64,000 nt of DNA from Methanothrix thermoacetophila PT (lineage in GTDB: Archaea; Halobacteriota; Methanosarcinia; Methanotrichales; Methanotrichaceae). Below, one piece after another: positions 30,859 to 37,253 of the stretch; within the stretch, counting starts at the first letter, position 1; each line of letters opens with the position of its first letter. A program made the position numbers and the translations under genes. The stretch covers positions 558,001-622,000 of the forward strand of contig NC_008553.1 of the NCBI RefSeq assembly GCF_000014945.1. Reading direction: 5' to 3'. The notes under the pieces are model-generated. The model did not search any database. It saw only the letters and a list, made by a program, of their open reading frames with translations, and was not told where the DNA came from.

Positions 30859-30885
30859 AAAAAAGTTTGTAGGCCTCTGGCCTAC
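30859..30885 (-). terminator. Terminator of the mcr operon
   Basis: GTAGGCC (30869-30875) and GGCCTAC (30879-30885) form a 7-bp perfect stem with a 3-nt loop, followed on the minus strand by a run of six T. The stem includes the TAG stop codon of mcrA, so termination is tightly placed behind the operon. Confidence 0.8.
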
Positions 30886-32561
30886 ACAGCTGGCATGACG
30901 AGGGATCTCTCGCCGGCAGCGCGGAACTCGCGCGCACCGCCCTTGCCGAAGCAGAGCCTGATGTCGGTCCAGTCGAAGACCAGCGCGGGGTTGGCGAAGG
31001 TCACCTTGATCAGCGGGTTGCATGCGAAGGCGTCGCCGCGGCCTGCGTGAGCAGCGCTTGAGATGCCTGCATACTCGCCCTGGTGGCCGACGTTCATCGC
31101 GTAGTTCGGATAGTTGGCGCCCCTCAGCTCGAGCGGGTTGCCCTCGTCCGACTGGTACGAGAAGACGTTGGTTGGGCCGCACTGATCCTGCAGGTCGTAG
31201 CCGAAGAATCCGAGCCTGCCATGTGCCTCCTTATGCAGCAGCTGCGAGAGGTACCAGCCAGCAAGGCCTGCCTGGCTGTTGCCAGTCGCTATGGCACAGG
31301 TGATGCCTGAGGCGGCTGCTGTGACTCCTGCCCTCTGGGATCCGCCGAAGTGATCCTCAAGCAGGGTCGGGAACGACTCGTACTGCTCAAGCGCATAGAG
31401 GGTGACCTCTGTGGCCAGATCCTTGACGACCTCCAGGTTGGCCGGCGCCTTGGCGAATCCACCGTACTTCTCCACGGCATAGTCAACGCCATAGTAGGAG
31501 AAGTCATCCAGGACATCGTTGGTGTACGCTGCTGTGGCGTACTGTGTGAATCCGACGCCTCCGGACATGTAGCTGCCCAGCCAGATCTGATCGTAGAGCA
31601 TCGTGCCTGCAGCGACCACGTTCAGTGAGACCTGTGTCGGATCCCAGGGCTTGACCCTCGATGTCTGGACCATGTCAGCCATGAAGCCGAAGCTCAGGCC
31701 GCCCGGGTTGTTGGGACCGCGAGCGCGGCGTGCAGGCAGCATGTCAGACATCTGGAGAACAGCGGCGTGCTTCGCAGCATACGCCAGATCCGCGACTGCA
31801 GCCTCACCGGCGCACATGTTGTACGCATCGATGAACGTCATCGAGAGCTGCATCGCGCTCCACCTTGAGGTCGTTCCACCATCGCAGCTCCTGACAACGA
31901 TCGTGGGGATGTGGATTGCCTGCCAGGTGGTCTTGCCGATGGCAGCCTTGAGCTGCTCCGCCTGGTCTGCCGGGAAGAGCTTGTTGATATCTATGAGGTA
32001 CTGCGGATCGATCTCGTCAGCGAGGTCATCATCTCCAGTGAAGACCCTGACGTTGCAGTCCTCCACCAACCCTGGATGTGTCTCAACCATGTGCTCCTGG
32101 ACCACGGCTGCGCCGGGCATCGCGTGGTTGAGGATCTCCAGGTAGTTGTTGATCGTCTCAGGTGTGACCTCCTTGCCCAGGCGCTTCTCAAGCACCTCAT
32201 GGGCCATATCGAGGCCTACCACGACGGTCCTGCGAATATCGTCCCACATCTGCTGCATCGCAGGGTTGTTGACGAAGTGCAGGTCGTCGCCCTCAACTAT
32301 ATACTCTGTGTTGGACAGCTTGTAGGGGACCAGCTGCCTCTGTCCCAGCGGAACTCCGCCGCAGTGCAGGTATGGGTTGTAGAATGATATGCCACGCTTC
32401 CCCTCCAGCTTCTTGGAGTACTCCATGAACTCTCTCTTACGAGCGCTCTGCTCGGGACCGAGCCTCTTGTACTCGGTCTTCTGGCTCGAGAGATCGAAGT
32501 CCTTTCCGAACTTCTTGGTCAGAGCCCTGACGAATAGCTTTTTGGTATGAAGTTTTGCCAT
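30882..32561 (-). CDS. mcrA: Methyl-coenzyme M reductase, alpha subunit
   Basis: McrA carries most of the F430 active site that releases methane from methyl-CoM and CoB. The 559-residue sequence has [11 protein letters not shown] (the usual 5-methyl-Arg site), [25 protein letters not shown] (Gln methylation site in other species) and [12 protein letters not shown] (thioglycine and methyl-Cys region). AGGAGG precedes the ATG at 32561. It is the last gene of mcrBDGA. Confidence 0.98.
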
Positions 32562-32574
32562 TTATCTCGCCTCC

Positions 32575-33342
32575 TCACTCCGGCCTGAAGCCCCACTTTG
32601 TCCTGTACTCCCACATGTGGTGCAGGGCCTCCAGCGCCTCGTCGAACTTTCTGGCGCCCACTTTACCACCAAAGGATACGTTGTCGTACCTGAAGATCGT
32701 CGTCCGCTTCTTGAGCTCATCCTCGCTCATCGGCTTGCCGACATTGATCTTCTTGTCCAGCGGTATGCCTACCTGGTCCTTGACATAGTAGACGTTGCCA
32801 TCGGCGCCCAGCTCGGTCCTGGCCAGCATATCGAACATCAGGCCGTTCTCCTCAAGCCTCAGGGAGTGGCCGTGGACCGTGCAGCCCCTCATGGAGCACC
32901 TGGCGACGTCTGTCATCTCAGAGTCCATAAGCTTCTTGGTGTACGCCTCGATATCTCTCTCACGGGCCTCTATGATCTGCCTGCCTGAGAGGGTGCCTGG
33001 ATCCGCGCCTCTGCAGTTGATAGCCGCCCAGTAGGACCTCCAGTAGGGAATCGACGGGGCGAAGTACATCGAGTCAGCAAACTGAGAATACCTGACGCGA
33101 TCTCCTGCCGCAGCGCCCGGTGTGGGCTCGACGAGCTGCCTTATCGGACAGTCAGGCTCACCCATCTCCTTCAGTGGCGGATGGGTGCTCGGGTAGTCGG
33201 CACCTGGGGCCCTGTGGCCCATAATAGCGACTACATCTGCCTCGGGAATATCTCTGAGCTTCTCGAGGTTTCCGGACATGTGCTTCCTTCTGTTGGCGCC
33301 AACAGAGGTGTTGCCGGGATAGTATTGGGGTGTGTATGCCAT
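32575..33342 (-). CDS. mcrG: Methyl-coenzyme M reductase, gamma subunit
   Basis: Third subunit of the MCR (alpha-beta-gamma)2 complex, 255 residues from MAYTPQYYPGNT. It shows IMGHRAPGADYPSTHPPL, RGCTVHGHSLRL and the C-terminal HMWEYRTKWGF expected of McrG. The start lies directly beside the mcrD stop, and mcrA follows after 13 bp with its own SD sequence. Confidence 0.97.
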   Translation of the reverse strand: MAYTPQYYPGNTSVGANRRKHMSGNLEKLRDIPEADVVAIMGHRAPGADYPSTHPPLKEMGEPDCPIRQLVEPTPGAAAGDRVRYSQFADSMYFAPSIPYWRSYWAAINCRGADPGTLSGRQIIEARERDIEAYTKKLMDSEMTDVARCSMRGCTVHGHSLRLEENGLMFDMLARTELGADGNVYYVKDQVGIPLDKKINVGKPMSEDELKKRTTIFRYDNVSFGGKVGARKFDEALEALHHMWEYRTKWGFRPE

Positions 33343-33343
33343 A

Positions 33344-33856
33344 TTATCTCTCCTCCTTCTCGTCACTATCCTTTTCAGACAGAATGGCCAGAGCAGATTC
33401 CTTCTTGGCTCGCGGATCGACCAGTCCGAGAATACGCTTGTCTGCATCCTTCCCGTATTTCGCATAATCGGAGATTGTGGAGATATCACGGAAGAACTTG
33501 CCCCTCTTTATCTGGAAGCTGAAGGGCAGCGCTCGCTCACACGCTGCCTCGATTCCAGGAAGGAACTCCTCGCCCTCCAGCTCCAGTCGGATCCTGCCGA
33601 CCTTCACCCTGAGCTCCAGGACCTCACCCCCCACCTCCACGAGAAGATTTCTGTGCTCCTCTATGGGCAGGCCCTTGCCGGGGCCGTATGTCACCGTCCT
33701 CGGGAGGTTGGGGCCCTGAATCATCATGCGGACGATTCCTCCGCTCTTGTAGAGCTCATTCAGGAGCTTCTGGGTGGTCTCCGGCGAGAGAAACCTGCTG
33801 GGGAAGATCTCCACCTGGACTGGCTCCGAATCCGTGTCTGATTTAATAGTGACCAT
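33344..33856 (-). CDS. mcrD: Methyl-coenzyme M reductase operon protein D
   Basis: McrD is an accessory protein that associates with MCR during assembly or activation and is not part of the purified active enzyme. The 170-residue sequence has VQVEIFPSRFLSPETTQKLL, GPNLPRTVTYGPGKGLP and a charged tail. It is placed between mcrB and mcrG, as in other methanogens whose operon lacks mcrC. Confidence 0.95.
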   Translation of the reverse strand: MVTIKSDTDSEPVQVEIFPSRFLSPETTQKLLNELYKSGGIVRMMIQGPNLPRTVTYGPGKGLPIEEHRNLLVEVGGEVLELRVKVGRIRLELEGEEFLPGIEAACERALPFSFQIKRGKFFRDISTISDYAKYGKDADKRILGLVDPRAKKESALAILSEKDSDEKEER

Positions 33857-33870
33857 GTGTTTCGCCTATC

Positions 33871-35175
33871 TTAGATTGCCTCCGCCACCGATACAATCGG
33901 CTCACGGAACTCCTTTATCTCTCCGTAGATGGCCCCGACGAGGCCGGATGTCATCTCGGGTGTGAACATCTGTGTGCCGGCATCAAGAGCCACAGCTGCA
34001 GCAACGCATGGTATGGCCATGCCTCTGGAGTGCCTGGTCACGATGTGGTTGCCGTTGAACACACCGGGACCGCCGCCGCCGTAGATCGAGTGGCTGAAGA
34101 ACGAGAAGCCGACTGCAGTACCCATCACCCTGCCGAAGTCACATCCAGGCAGAGCGGTCTCCTTCTCAACGAGGTCGTTGTAGTACAGCAGCGTCGAGGA
34201 GACAGCCTGGGCACCCCTCAGAGCACCGCAGTTGACCATTGTGGCTGCGAGAACGCCAGCTGCATTGTACGCATTCCACATGGAAACGTCATTTGCCTCG
34301 TACATCACATATCCGGAGGGGAACTTCTTGCCGGGCTTTATGACCTTGTCCTCAAGCGCCCTCTCGACGACGCTGTGGACGACCGTGCCTATTGTGCCGG
34401 TCTTGCCGTTCTTCTTGACGAGATCATATACCATGTTGTTCGCGTTCAGACCCTGGAATGCAAGCGCGAGAAGCTGGTGCCTCTCGAAGATGCCGATCGC
34501 ATTGCCCATCTCGAACTCGCCCATCTGCTCAAGTATCGCGGCGAGGGATGCGGCATTCATGGCGTTTCTCTTTGTGATGGCAGCGATGTGGTTCGCCATG
34601 ACGTTCCTGTATGCGAAGCCCAGACCCTCATCGTTCTGGGGTATGTTGAGAACAGATGCGACGTTTCCGCCGTTCATGCCGACGGTCTGCGGGTACTCGC
34701 CCCACACTGCAGCATGGATCATCGGAGCATCGAAGAGACCTGCCTTGAAGTGCTGGATTATCGCCTCAACAGTGGCAGCTGCGGCAGCCGTCATTCCGAC
34801 CACGAACTCAGAGGCGATCTCCGCCCTGGCCGAGGGGATCTGGACGAGAAGCTGCTTGCCTCCGCCGAGTACCTGCACATTTGTATCGTCGCCGGGTGTA
34901 ACCTGGAGAAGGGCCTTTATCTTCTCAGCAAGGGCAGATGCATTTGCAACAATATCGTAGTTCAGCTCGCGGCCCTTGATCTGCCTTCTGCCGCCGCCGA
35001 CACGCCCTGTCTTCAGAGCATTTTCAATTCCTGCCAGGTTTACTGCAACAGTCCGCCTCGTCAGTTTCGCAAGCTTTTGGATAGCTGCGTTCCTGAGTGG
35101 GCTGATGGCGCTGAGGTCAACGTCACTCTTTAAAAGAACCCCACGGTCACTATATATGTCTATCTTGTCAGACAC
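33871..35175 (-). CDS. mcrB: Methyl-coenzyme M reductase, beta subunit
   Basis: Beta subunit of MCR, 434 residues, beginning [20 protein letters not shown] and containing [20 protein letters not shown] and [20 protein letters not shown], which contribute to the CoB and F430 pockets. The start is a GTG at 35175, fixed by AAGGAGG 9 nt upstream. It is first in mcrBDGA. Confidence 0.97.
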
Positions 35176-35184
35176 GTTCCTTAT

Positions 35185-35321
35185 CCTCCTTTACCTTCTA
35201 GCAGAAAGGCGCAATGGATACCGTCCCCTGGAGCGATGATACGACACCAAGCCGTATCCAGGTCCGGCCATATCATTACAACCTCCCGCCGCTAATACAA
35301 TCGATGCATGTCTACTTAAAT
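35185..35321 (-). promoter_or_regulatory. mcr operon promoter and leader
   Basis: The SD AAGGAGG is at 35185-35191. TTTAAGTA (35314-35321 on the minus strand) is the nearest good TATA box and would start transcription near 35292, giving a leader of about 115 nt. Further AT-rich boxes (TTTATAAATTC near 35376-35387) could be alternative promoters. Confidence 0.5.
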
Positions 35322-35639
35322 GTTTTGATTGAGATTACAAATTAAGTATAAATTATTTTAATAAGATCACGAAGTGAATTTATAAATAGCAAAATTTTTT
35401 AAAAAATGCCACGTATTTTAATAACTAGCAGTGCCGAGAATCATACTGATATACAAAATTCGCATTGCGAATCGCAGGAACAAAACCACACGATTTTTAT
35501 GTGATATAGTTTTCTGCGCGACATCTCAAAAGAGACCATATCATTCAATATATTATATAATCAATGCTCAACCCTCTCTGCTTAGTAAATGTAAAACCCA
35601 CATGTCAGCTACTCCGGCCAGGCAGGAGCTTGTCCTTGG

Positions 35640-35940
35640 CGTTATGCAGAGAATCCAGCGTGCTCCTACGACTCTCGACGGAGTCGAGAATCGTAAAGGC
35701 TGCGGCGCGTTCAGTAGCCACTTGACAGAGGCAACAGGCAGGTTGACGCCAGCTTGCAAAACCGGGCTCTTACGAGCGGCGACCCCGTAGACACACCTAG
35801 ACTCAGATGCAGGTTTCAGCTTCCGCATTGCTGCGGATTCGGAGTGCTCTGATGTCTCTCACCATCCCTGCTCGAAACCGTTTCTCCATAACGGGGTCTA
35901 TTGTCAGGTCTGATGGCATGGCATTTCAGGAGATAATCAT
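35640..35940 (+). ncRNA. HEARO/IscB omega-RNA-like structured RNA, without its nuclease gene
   Basis: GC-rich sequence with several good stems: TCTCGAC/GTCGAGA (35673-35689, extended by ACGA/TCGT), TCCGCA-TTGC-TGCGGA (35822-35837), and nested CCATC/GATGG (35862-35916) around CCGTT/AACGG (35878-35894). The order of segments (GGCTGCGGCGCG, GTAGCCAC, GACGCCAGC, ACGAGCGGCGACCCC, GGATTCGGAGTGC, GGGGTCTATTGTCAGGTC) resembles, from memory, the HEARO RNA that precedes iscB HNH-endonuclease genes. An ATG sits at its 3' end (35939) but is followed at once by TGA. No iscB follows, so it is probably a relic or non-autonomous element. The identification needs a covariance-model search. Confidence 0.5.
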
Positions 35941-35954
35941 GTGAAGATATGGCT

Positions 35955-36030
35955 ACCATGTGGAGTACACTCCTCCCTCTAAAGAGCGGGGTCTCCGCTA
36001 TCCATACGCCCCAGGTGATTCTATCACTAT
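35955..36030. mobile_element. Possible right end of the IscB-type element
   Basis: Just after the RNA-like region, ATGTGGAGTACACTCC is followed by CTCTAAAGAG and the hairpin AGCGG-GGTCT-CCGCT. Subterminal hairpins of this kind are typical of IS200/IS605-related ends. The exact boundary is not resolved. Confidence 0.35.
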
Positions 36031-36161
36031 AATCGAATGTTATTACATTGTGAGACTTGAACCCGAAAAGGTGTATCAAAAACAGAACATGGTCTCGAAT
36101 AGCCGAATGACTCCGGAACCAAGACCCACTGACAAATGAGTCCGGGCAAACTGAGCGCTCT

Positions 36162-37253
36162 TCATGTGATGTCCTGAGCCGGGCACTCGGATTTGAATCC
36201 ACTGAAATCGCCGGAGCGTCTCATCGCCCTCCATATTTCAGGGAGTGGTGTATCCAGAACGTTCCCGTAAACCCTGCTGAGATACGGACACCCCCTGATC
36301 CCACCATCCACACCCACATGAAGCCAGCGTCTGCCTGCCATGCAGCCCAGCATCTCGCCCTCGAAGTACGTGCTTGCAAATACCCTTGGACCGTCCTGGG
36401 AGGCGTTCATCTTTCTGTAGAAACGTATGATCTTCTCCCTGTCGATACGGGTCAGGCGCTCATCCTCACTCCTTGGTATCGCCTCCCACACAGATAGCTC
36501 GTGTACCCCGAGCTCTCTGGCAAGCTCGTACAGCTCCGGAAGCGTATTGACCCTTTCTGAGTTCACATGGGTTGACATCGTTACGAGCAGGCCTGCCTTC
36601 AGCCCCATCCTAATGGCATTCACAGCCCTCTCATAAGCTCCCACAACACCGCGGATCTGATCATGGATCCTGGGATCGGCGCTGTAAATCCCTATGATGA
36701 GGTTGTAAAGACCTGCCTCCCTCAACGCATCAGCAATCTCAGGGGTCATCTCAAGCCCGGGGGTGAATAGATTGACCACAGCTTTCTCCTTATCCACATA
36801 TTTTACAAGCTCGATGATGTCAGGCCTGAGCAGAGGATCGCCCTCTGTGAATGTGATTATACATGCGCCCATATCCAGAGCCTGGTCTATGACGTTCCTG
36901 ATCGCATCTGAGGAGAGCTCATCCTCAGCCTCCTGGAGCGTGCAGTGCTCACAGCTGCACCCGCATCTGCGTGTCACCTCTATGCTCACAGTCTGGGGGA
37001 CCTCACGACCTATCGCTATCCGGGCCTCATTCATGATGAGCCGCCTGAATGGCCCGCTCGGTATCGGCGGGAGCCATGTTGATGGTATTATCGCATCGCT
37101 CCTCACGAGCGCAGGTTTCTCCTCCGCCAGCCTCTCATTTATCTTCTTCAGTATCGGTTGGACCATAAGCGAGAGGGCCCCATGCGCCTCGATCCTCCGC
37201 GCCTCATCGATGAAGTCGACCGTAAGGGCGGCGGTCTTTAGTAGCTGAGTCAT
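36162..37253 (-). CDS. Radical SAM/SPASM-type protein, possibly 3'-truncated
   Basis: A 363-residue protein: an N-terminal helical segment, then the SAM barrel with CGCSCEHC (C-x3-C-x2-C), ITFTEGDPLLRPDI and IGIYSADPRIHDQIRG, and a C-terminal cysteine set (EMLGCMAGRRWLH ... GIRGCPYLSRVYG ... ECPAQD) of a SPASM or twitch domain. The reading frame ends four residues after the last Cys, right beside the HEARO-like element, and homologous SPASM regions usually run on. The substrate is unknown; proximity to mcr suggests but does not show a link. Confidence 0.8.
   Translation of the reverse strand: MTQLLKTAALTVDFIDEARRIEAHGALSLMVQPILKKINERLAEEKPALVRSDAIIPSTWLPPIPSGPFRRLIMNEARIAIGREVPQTVSIEVTRRCGCSCEHCTLQEAEDELSSDAIRNVIDQALDMGACIITFTEGDPLLRPDIIELVKYVDKEKAVVNLFTPGLEMTPEIADALREAGLYNLIIGIYSADPRIHDQIRGVVGAYERAVNAIRMGLKAGLLVTMSTHVNSERVNTLPELYELARELGVHELSVWEAIPRSEDERLTRIDREKIIRFYRKMNASQDGPRVFASTYFEGEMLGCMAGRRWLHVGVDGGIRGCPYLSRVYGNVLDTPLPEIWRAMRRSGDFSGFKSECPAQDIT

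Follow-up and report, generated by a model that had tools for sequence, protein, structure and literature searches.

Introduction

The PATEs of Haloquadratum walsbyi have IS605-type, IS1341-related ends, and their mobility is unexplained because intact IS200-type transposases are scarce (PMC3119063). For ISDra2, an element of the IS200/IS605 group, the right end was described as the source of the guide RNA (reRNA) with the flank as the guide; insertion takes place 3' of TTGAT without duplication (PMC8612924).

Here, a gap beside the mcr operon was investigated in a window of 64 kb, the whole stretch of DNA analysed, from a host genome consisting of a single contig (1,879,471 bases). Judged from translations, the minus-strand genes at 30882-35175 form the operon. 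The gap reaches from the start of mcrB (35175) to the end of a radical-SAM-like gene and contains the element described below. We conclude with high confidence that this is a degenerate PATE copy, i.e. a non-autonomous element of the IS200/IS605 group that carries no gene and whose ends also occur on an IS1341-type (TnpB-only) transposon in the same archaeal genus. The family is new, its kind is already known, and here it is paired with TnpB elements. In the open-licence literature no published report of the element in Methanothrix/Methanosaeta was found. The locus comprises the following features:

30882-32561, minus strand: mcrA (translation)
33871-35175, minus strand: mcrB (translation)
35584-35603, minus strand: would-be guide segment in the flank, ATGTGGGTTTTACATTTACT, if a right-end RNA is made (position only, by analogy with the TnpB reRNA, PMC8612924)
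35604-36022, minus strand: entire gene-less element (PATE) in degenerate form, running from its left end (36022) to its right end (35604) (aligned with 15 further copies)
35604-35749, minus strand: right end, omega-RNA-like three-way junction broken by an insert (covariance-model match)
35612-35628, minus strand: terminal right-end palindrome, 3 nt below consensus length (alignments)
35667-35695: perfect hairpin TACGACTCTCGAC-GGA-GTCGAGAATCGTA, within an insert of about 60 nt unique to this copy (alignment)
35750-35940, minus strand: internal region, found in gene-less copies and not in tnpB elements, without covariation
35962-36022, minus strand: left end with degraded palindrome, CCCCGCTCTTTAGAGGGAGG compared to CCCCGCCCTTCAGGGCGGGG in the consensus (alignment; left end common to the tnpB elements L065 and L068)
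36023-36027, minus strand: GTGAT at the former target site, where most other copies have (Y)TCAT (junction comparison)
36162-37253, minus strand: radical-SAM-like gene

Results and Discussion

A dispersed element, about 370-490 nt long, is represented in the window by one copy, at 35604-36022. Searching the host genome with the block revealed, besides additional end fragments, a second copy (79%) at C1:1382-1624. Such a search, also in relatives, had been proposed in an earlier note on this DNA, and four relatives indeed carry copies: besides the two in the host genome, seven were found in G005, six in G002 (one of them truncated by the contig end) and a single copy in each of G003 and G004. 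Aligned with their flanks, the copies end abruptly in unrelated surroundings. On the minus strand the element reads TCAT, then AGAACCTCCTGGGG...GGAAACCCCGCCCTTCAGGGCGGGGAGGAG ... CAAGCTCCGGTCTTCAGGCCGGAGTAGTTGAC, then flank. The target (Y)TCAT precedes the left end, TCAT being present at nearly all junctions compared, and the right terminus of the copies is TTGAC. Identity of the window copy to the consensus amounts to 71% over nt 3-310 and 82% over nt 312-367. In addition, two tandem right ends with no left end occur in the host genome at L010:3855-4005 (C1:253854-254004).

No long reading frame is kept across the copies, and translated comparison with the tnpB loci matched nothing except the shared ends and one neighbouring copy. 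The internal region of about 200 nt is common to the gene-less copies, missing from the tnpB elements and not explained by deletion from known ones. Among 50 genomes it is confined to the genus, save for a match of 24 nt in a single genome from a different genus. Two roles for it were considered and rejected: as to coding, MRKLKPAFEAR and similar frames do not persist as long open frames from copy to copy, and for a conserved RNA the covariation term is unfavourable. Three elements of about 380 nt in another genus (L120, L121 and L130 in G021) show the same left and right ends around a different internal region and constitute an independent gene-less family.

The partner of the gene-less copies was found in G005, where the two intact tnpB elements L065 and L068 have a left end 94-97% identical over 74-79 nt and a right end identical in 33/33 nt. 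Their tnpB stop codon, TAG, lies inside the shared right end. The encoded protein is a TnpB by Pfam and also matches solved Cas12f/TnpB chains. Both near-terminal palindromes of the element lie in ends that match L065 and L068, those of the window copy being degraded. TnpB genes are carried by genomes of the genus, and additional tnpB elements with similar ends were detected in G001, G021 and G026. A tnpB with matching ends was not found in the host genome.

Across 19 distinct right ends of gene-less and tnpB-bearing elements, a three-way junction is formed in 91.2% of the cells. Its covariation score of 0.168 compares with 0.125 ± 0.011 for shuffled alignments and at most 0.070 for slid versions; since the shuffle control does not remove relatedness, this is moderate support. 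Between gene-less and tnpB-bearing elements stem 2 switches from UUGUC/GACAA to UUGUA/UACAA. A covariance model built from right ends excluding the window copy matched that copy blindly at 35604-35749 on the minus strand with 34.1 bits (E 7.7e-8), a match that draws also on plain sequence similarity; the next best in the window reached 14.4 bits. As for a TnpB omega-RNA (reRNA), the scaffold fold is common with the tnpB element and reaches the element terminus.

These results bear on the earlier note, which had read 35640-36030 as an orphan HEARO (IscB omega-RNA) on the plus strand, left without iscB. Several of its observations could be confirmed. The GC-rich block beside AT-rich DNA is real, with 54-61% G+C at about 35600-35900 and only 21-36% in the neighbouring 35300-35599, and three perfect stems exist where they had been placed:

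35667-35679 and 35683-35695: arms containing the stem TCTCGAC/GTCGAGA
35822-35837: stem TCCGCA-TTGC-TGCGGA
35878-35894: stem CCGTT/AACGG

A hairpin-bearing end after an ATG-TGA was likewise found, at about 35962-36003. The ATG-TGA is present at 35939-35944, but lies in the internal region of the element and no role was seen for it. The interval itself was set 36 nt late, leaving the diagnostic right end at 35604-35640 outside. The folding energy of the 311-nt block cannot be distinguished from that of shuffles on either strand (plus, z = -1.5, 10/100 shuffles folding equally well or better; minus, z = -1.6, 6/100). On structure alone the observation would fall; it is repetition that carries the signal.

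A gene-free, GC-rich hairpin block near a hairpin-bearing end would suit a HEARO, but the Rfam check, which we ran, gave no match even at E<=10 in 35200-36300 and none at gathering score across the whole window. Over all Rfam families, no more than three matches came up at E<=10, each with a low score that falls far short of the family's gathering score. The covariance-model match places the structured, guide-RNA-like end on the minus strand, where plus had been read. From the alignment of copies, the plus-strand stems taken as HEARO signs are internal sequence or copy-specific insert, and the main one, the hairpin at 35667-35695 that had been seen first, is unique to the window copy and not present in others. 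Moreover, the element ends are identical to those of TnpB elements, and on this sequence comparison the orphan HEARO, to which we give practically no credence, is refuted in the main. PF14239 (IscB N-terminal RRXRR) had no match in six genomes; control genomes gave none either, so this is not proof of absence. Given the lack of a HEARO match and the existence of intact TnpB elements with these ends, we assign the family to TnpB (IS200/IS605, IS1341-type) and not to IscB/HEARO, and the call is corrected to a TnpB-related one. The idea of a guide-type RNA end without its nuclease survives in part: the element end resembles that type and the nuclease gene is absent, but the nuclease belongs to the TnpB family. 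The 'decayed element' that had been offered as one reading is supported, the window copy being the degenerate remains of a mobile element.

Empty sites were obtained from sister copies. At G2C11 the joined flanks align gap-free to five other species, with TCAT kept and no duplication; G5C4 and G5C15a are likewise empty in other genomes, again retaining TCAT and free of duplication. A search for an empty site of the window copy found none. Junctions and sister-copy empty sites thus reveal neither terminal inverted repeats nor target duplication, as in PATEs. By analogy with ISDra2 (PMC8612924), exact insertion 3' of a short motif is what peel-and-paste would be expected to leave. Transposition of the copies would have proceeded through single-stranded circles, with a Y1 transposase (TnpA) provided in trans. 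Y1 TnpA (PF01797) is absent from the host genome (G000) and from G005, hence the source of mobility was not seen; the Haloquadratum PATEs had posed this problem too (PMC3119063). The only one found in six genomes of the genus, L081 (G001:C69:41569-41931), is a candidate for mobilisation in trans. A transcript of the right end together with the adjoining flank could act as guide RNA for the cognate TnpB. Since the DNA after TCAT at an empty site is the flank past the right end when the site is filled, such an RNA would match its own empty site, and the cognate TnpB would cut the empty (Y)TCAT-flank sequence and so restore the element.

Two insertions are common to two species. L040:3847-4213 and L048:3081-3447 represent one insertion with both flanks common to G005 and G002, inherited vertically; the element is 83.7% identical compared to 85.6 and 98.0% for the flanks (right flank 98.0%). 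For the other insertion the element is 88.4% identical, the flanks 92.7 and 94.8%. Both elements diverge at least as much as their flanks, which gives no sign of selection keeping them. Host function by way of retained orthologous copies was accordingly rejected, the element being conserved no better than its flanks.

The placement of the copies relative to genes was analysed as well. At nine left-end junctions TCAT is the reverse complement of the start codon context ATGA of the neighbouring gene (L038:4000, L041:4401, L042:3777 and 6261, L043:4506, L047:2990 and 12937, L049:2353, L123:2608). Read outward, the left end is AGGAGGTTCT, then ATGA, with AGGAGG a few nt upstream of the start. In six of the nine abutting genes Pfam recognises a domain (ribbon-helix-helix, FAD oxidoreductase, RimK-type ATP-grasp, nickel insertion, diphthamide synthase, MFS), which begins at residues 1-6 in four of them; a seventh gene is conserved in five species, and the beginnings of two more resemble signal peptides. 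For L043:10867-11673, a possible tenth case, Pfam gave no match, and the end of a converging frame next to it makes it doubtful.

The nine stand among roughly 30 confident junctions (9/18 for G005 and G002 combined). ATGA begins 13 of the called genes in the window, compared to 134 TCAT sites outside called genes, which gives a null of about 9%. The binomial tail for 9/30 is 0.0008 at this null, 0.03 at 15% and 0.10 at 19%. The excess is suggestive, was noticed after the fact and is partly due to selection against gene disruption. Weak left-end matches of the first 16-48 nt before MNRRDAA, MNLSRAARSLG, MSTTEYSM and similar genes were left out of the count and may be plain AGGAGG+ATGA matches. 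Left-end-like first 44-48 nt also precede the same gene (MNRRDAA...) in three species (L167, L171, L173), either an ancient insertion common to the three or a coincidental match to AGGAGG+ATGA. That the family docks on start codons, the Shine-Dalgarno-like AGGAGG before a rebuilt ATG replacing the leader and keeping translation while the right end serves as guide RNA in trans to TnpB, seems to us a doubtful though not negligible proposition. If it is true in larger sets, the placement of a built-in ribosome-binding motif at start codons would be of interest.

Copies directly preceding start codons, together with the sequence conservation of the internal region within the genus, could also point towards a host leader RNA or sRNA family, dispersed by chance, with each copy serving its adjacent gene. 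The exact empty sites, the unrelated neighbouring genes, the divergence of the two-species insertions, the internal region without covariation support and the position of the window copy away from any start codon make this explanation very improbable compared to the PATE.

As a PATE, the window copy is decayed. In addition to the target GTGAT and the shortened palindrome, its right terminus is CTGAC, compared to TTGAC elsewhere, and the insert of about 60 nt falls in stem 2 of the right-end fold. The core TCGACTCCGTCGA of the hairpin at 35667-35695 recurs in the same genome at L008 (C1:1556200-1556500), a second palindrome-bearing repeat; the hairpin may represent a further small mobile repeat that has inserted into element ends. 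Could the same element still be an active, trans-acting omega-RNA source for the TnpB of the host? Its right end gives 34.1 bits even now, and an intact-looking TnpB of 407 aa is encoded in the host genome. The host-genome TnpBs are, however, of another subfamily, with a best identity to the cognate TnpB of just 29.6%, and the right end of the intact-looking one is different and terminates in TTCAC. Taken with the altered target and terminus, the shortened palindrome and the interrupted stem, this leaves such activity only a slight chance, and use in trans by this copy is unlikely. The window copy is without the sequences needed for both TnpA mobilisation and the TnpB-guide step; most likely it is an inert fossil, lying between mcrB and the radical-SAM gene.

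Comparison with Known Systems

A PATE family is documented in a methanogen genus together with intact TnpB elements that match it and with exact empty sites, providing a natural set for testing guide-RNA use in trans by gene-less elements. In common with HEARO/IscB omega-RNA it has a guide-RNA-type scaffold at the end of a mobile element; it differs in the missing HEARO score, in that no iscB was seen, in the partner nuclease and in the opposite strand. Similar to ISDra2 (PMC8612924), insertion occurs 3' of a short motif without duplication and both ends bear subterminal palindromes, whereas ISDra2 has the motif TTGAT and both tnpA and tnpB, the present element (Y)TCAT and neither gene. L065 and L068 agree with it in the left end (94-97%), the right end (33/33 nt), the target motif and the right-end fold, but carry intact tnpB, lack the internal region of about 200 nt and differ in the sequence of right-end stem 2. 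Like the Haloquadratum walsbyi PATEs (PMC3119063), the element is gene-free, has near-terminal palindromes, no terminal inverted repeats and no target duplication, and its ends are related to IS605-type/IS1341 transposons. In contrast to them it belongs to another genus and has another sequence, with an internal region of about 200 nt, the target (Y)TCAT and AGGAGG in the left end.
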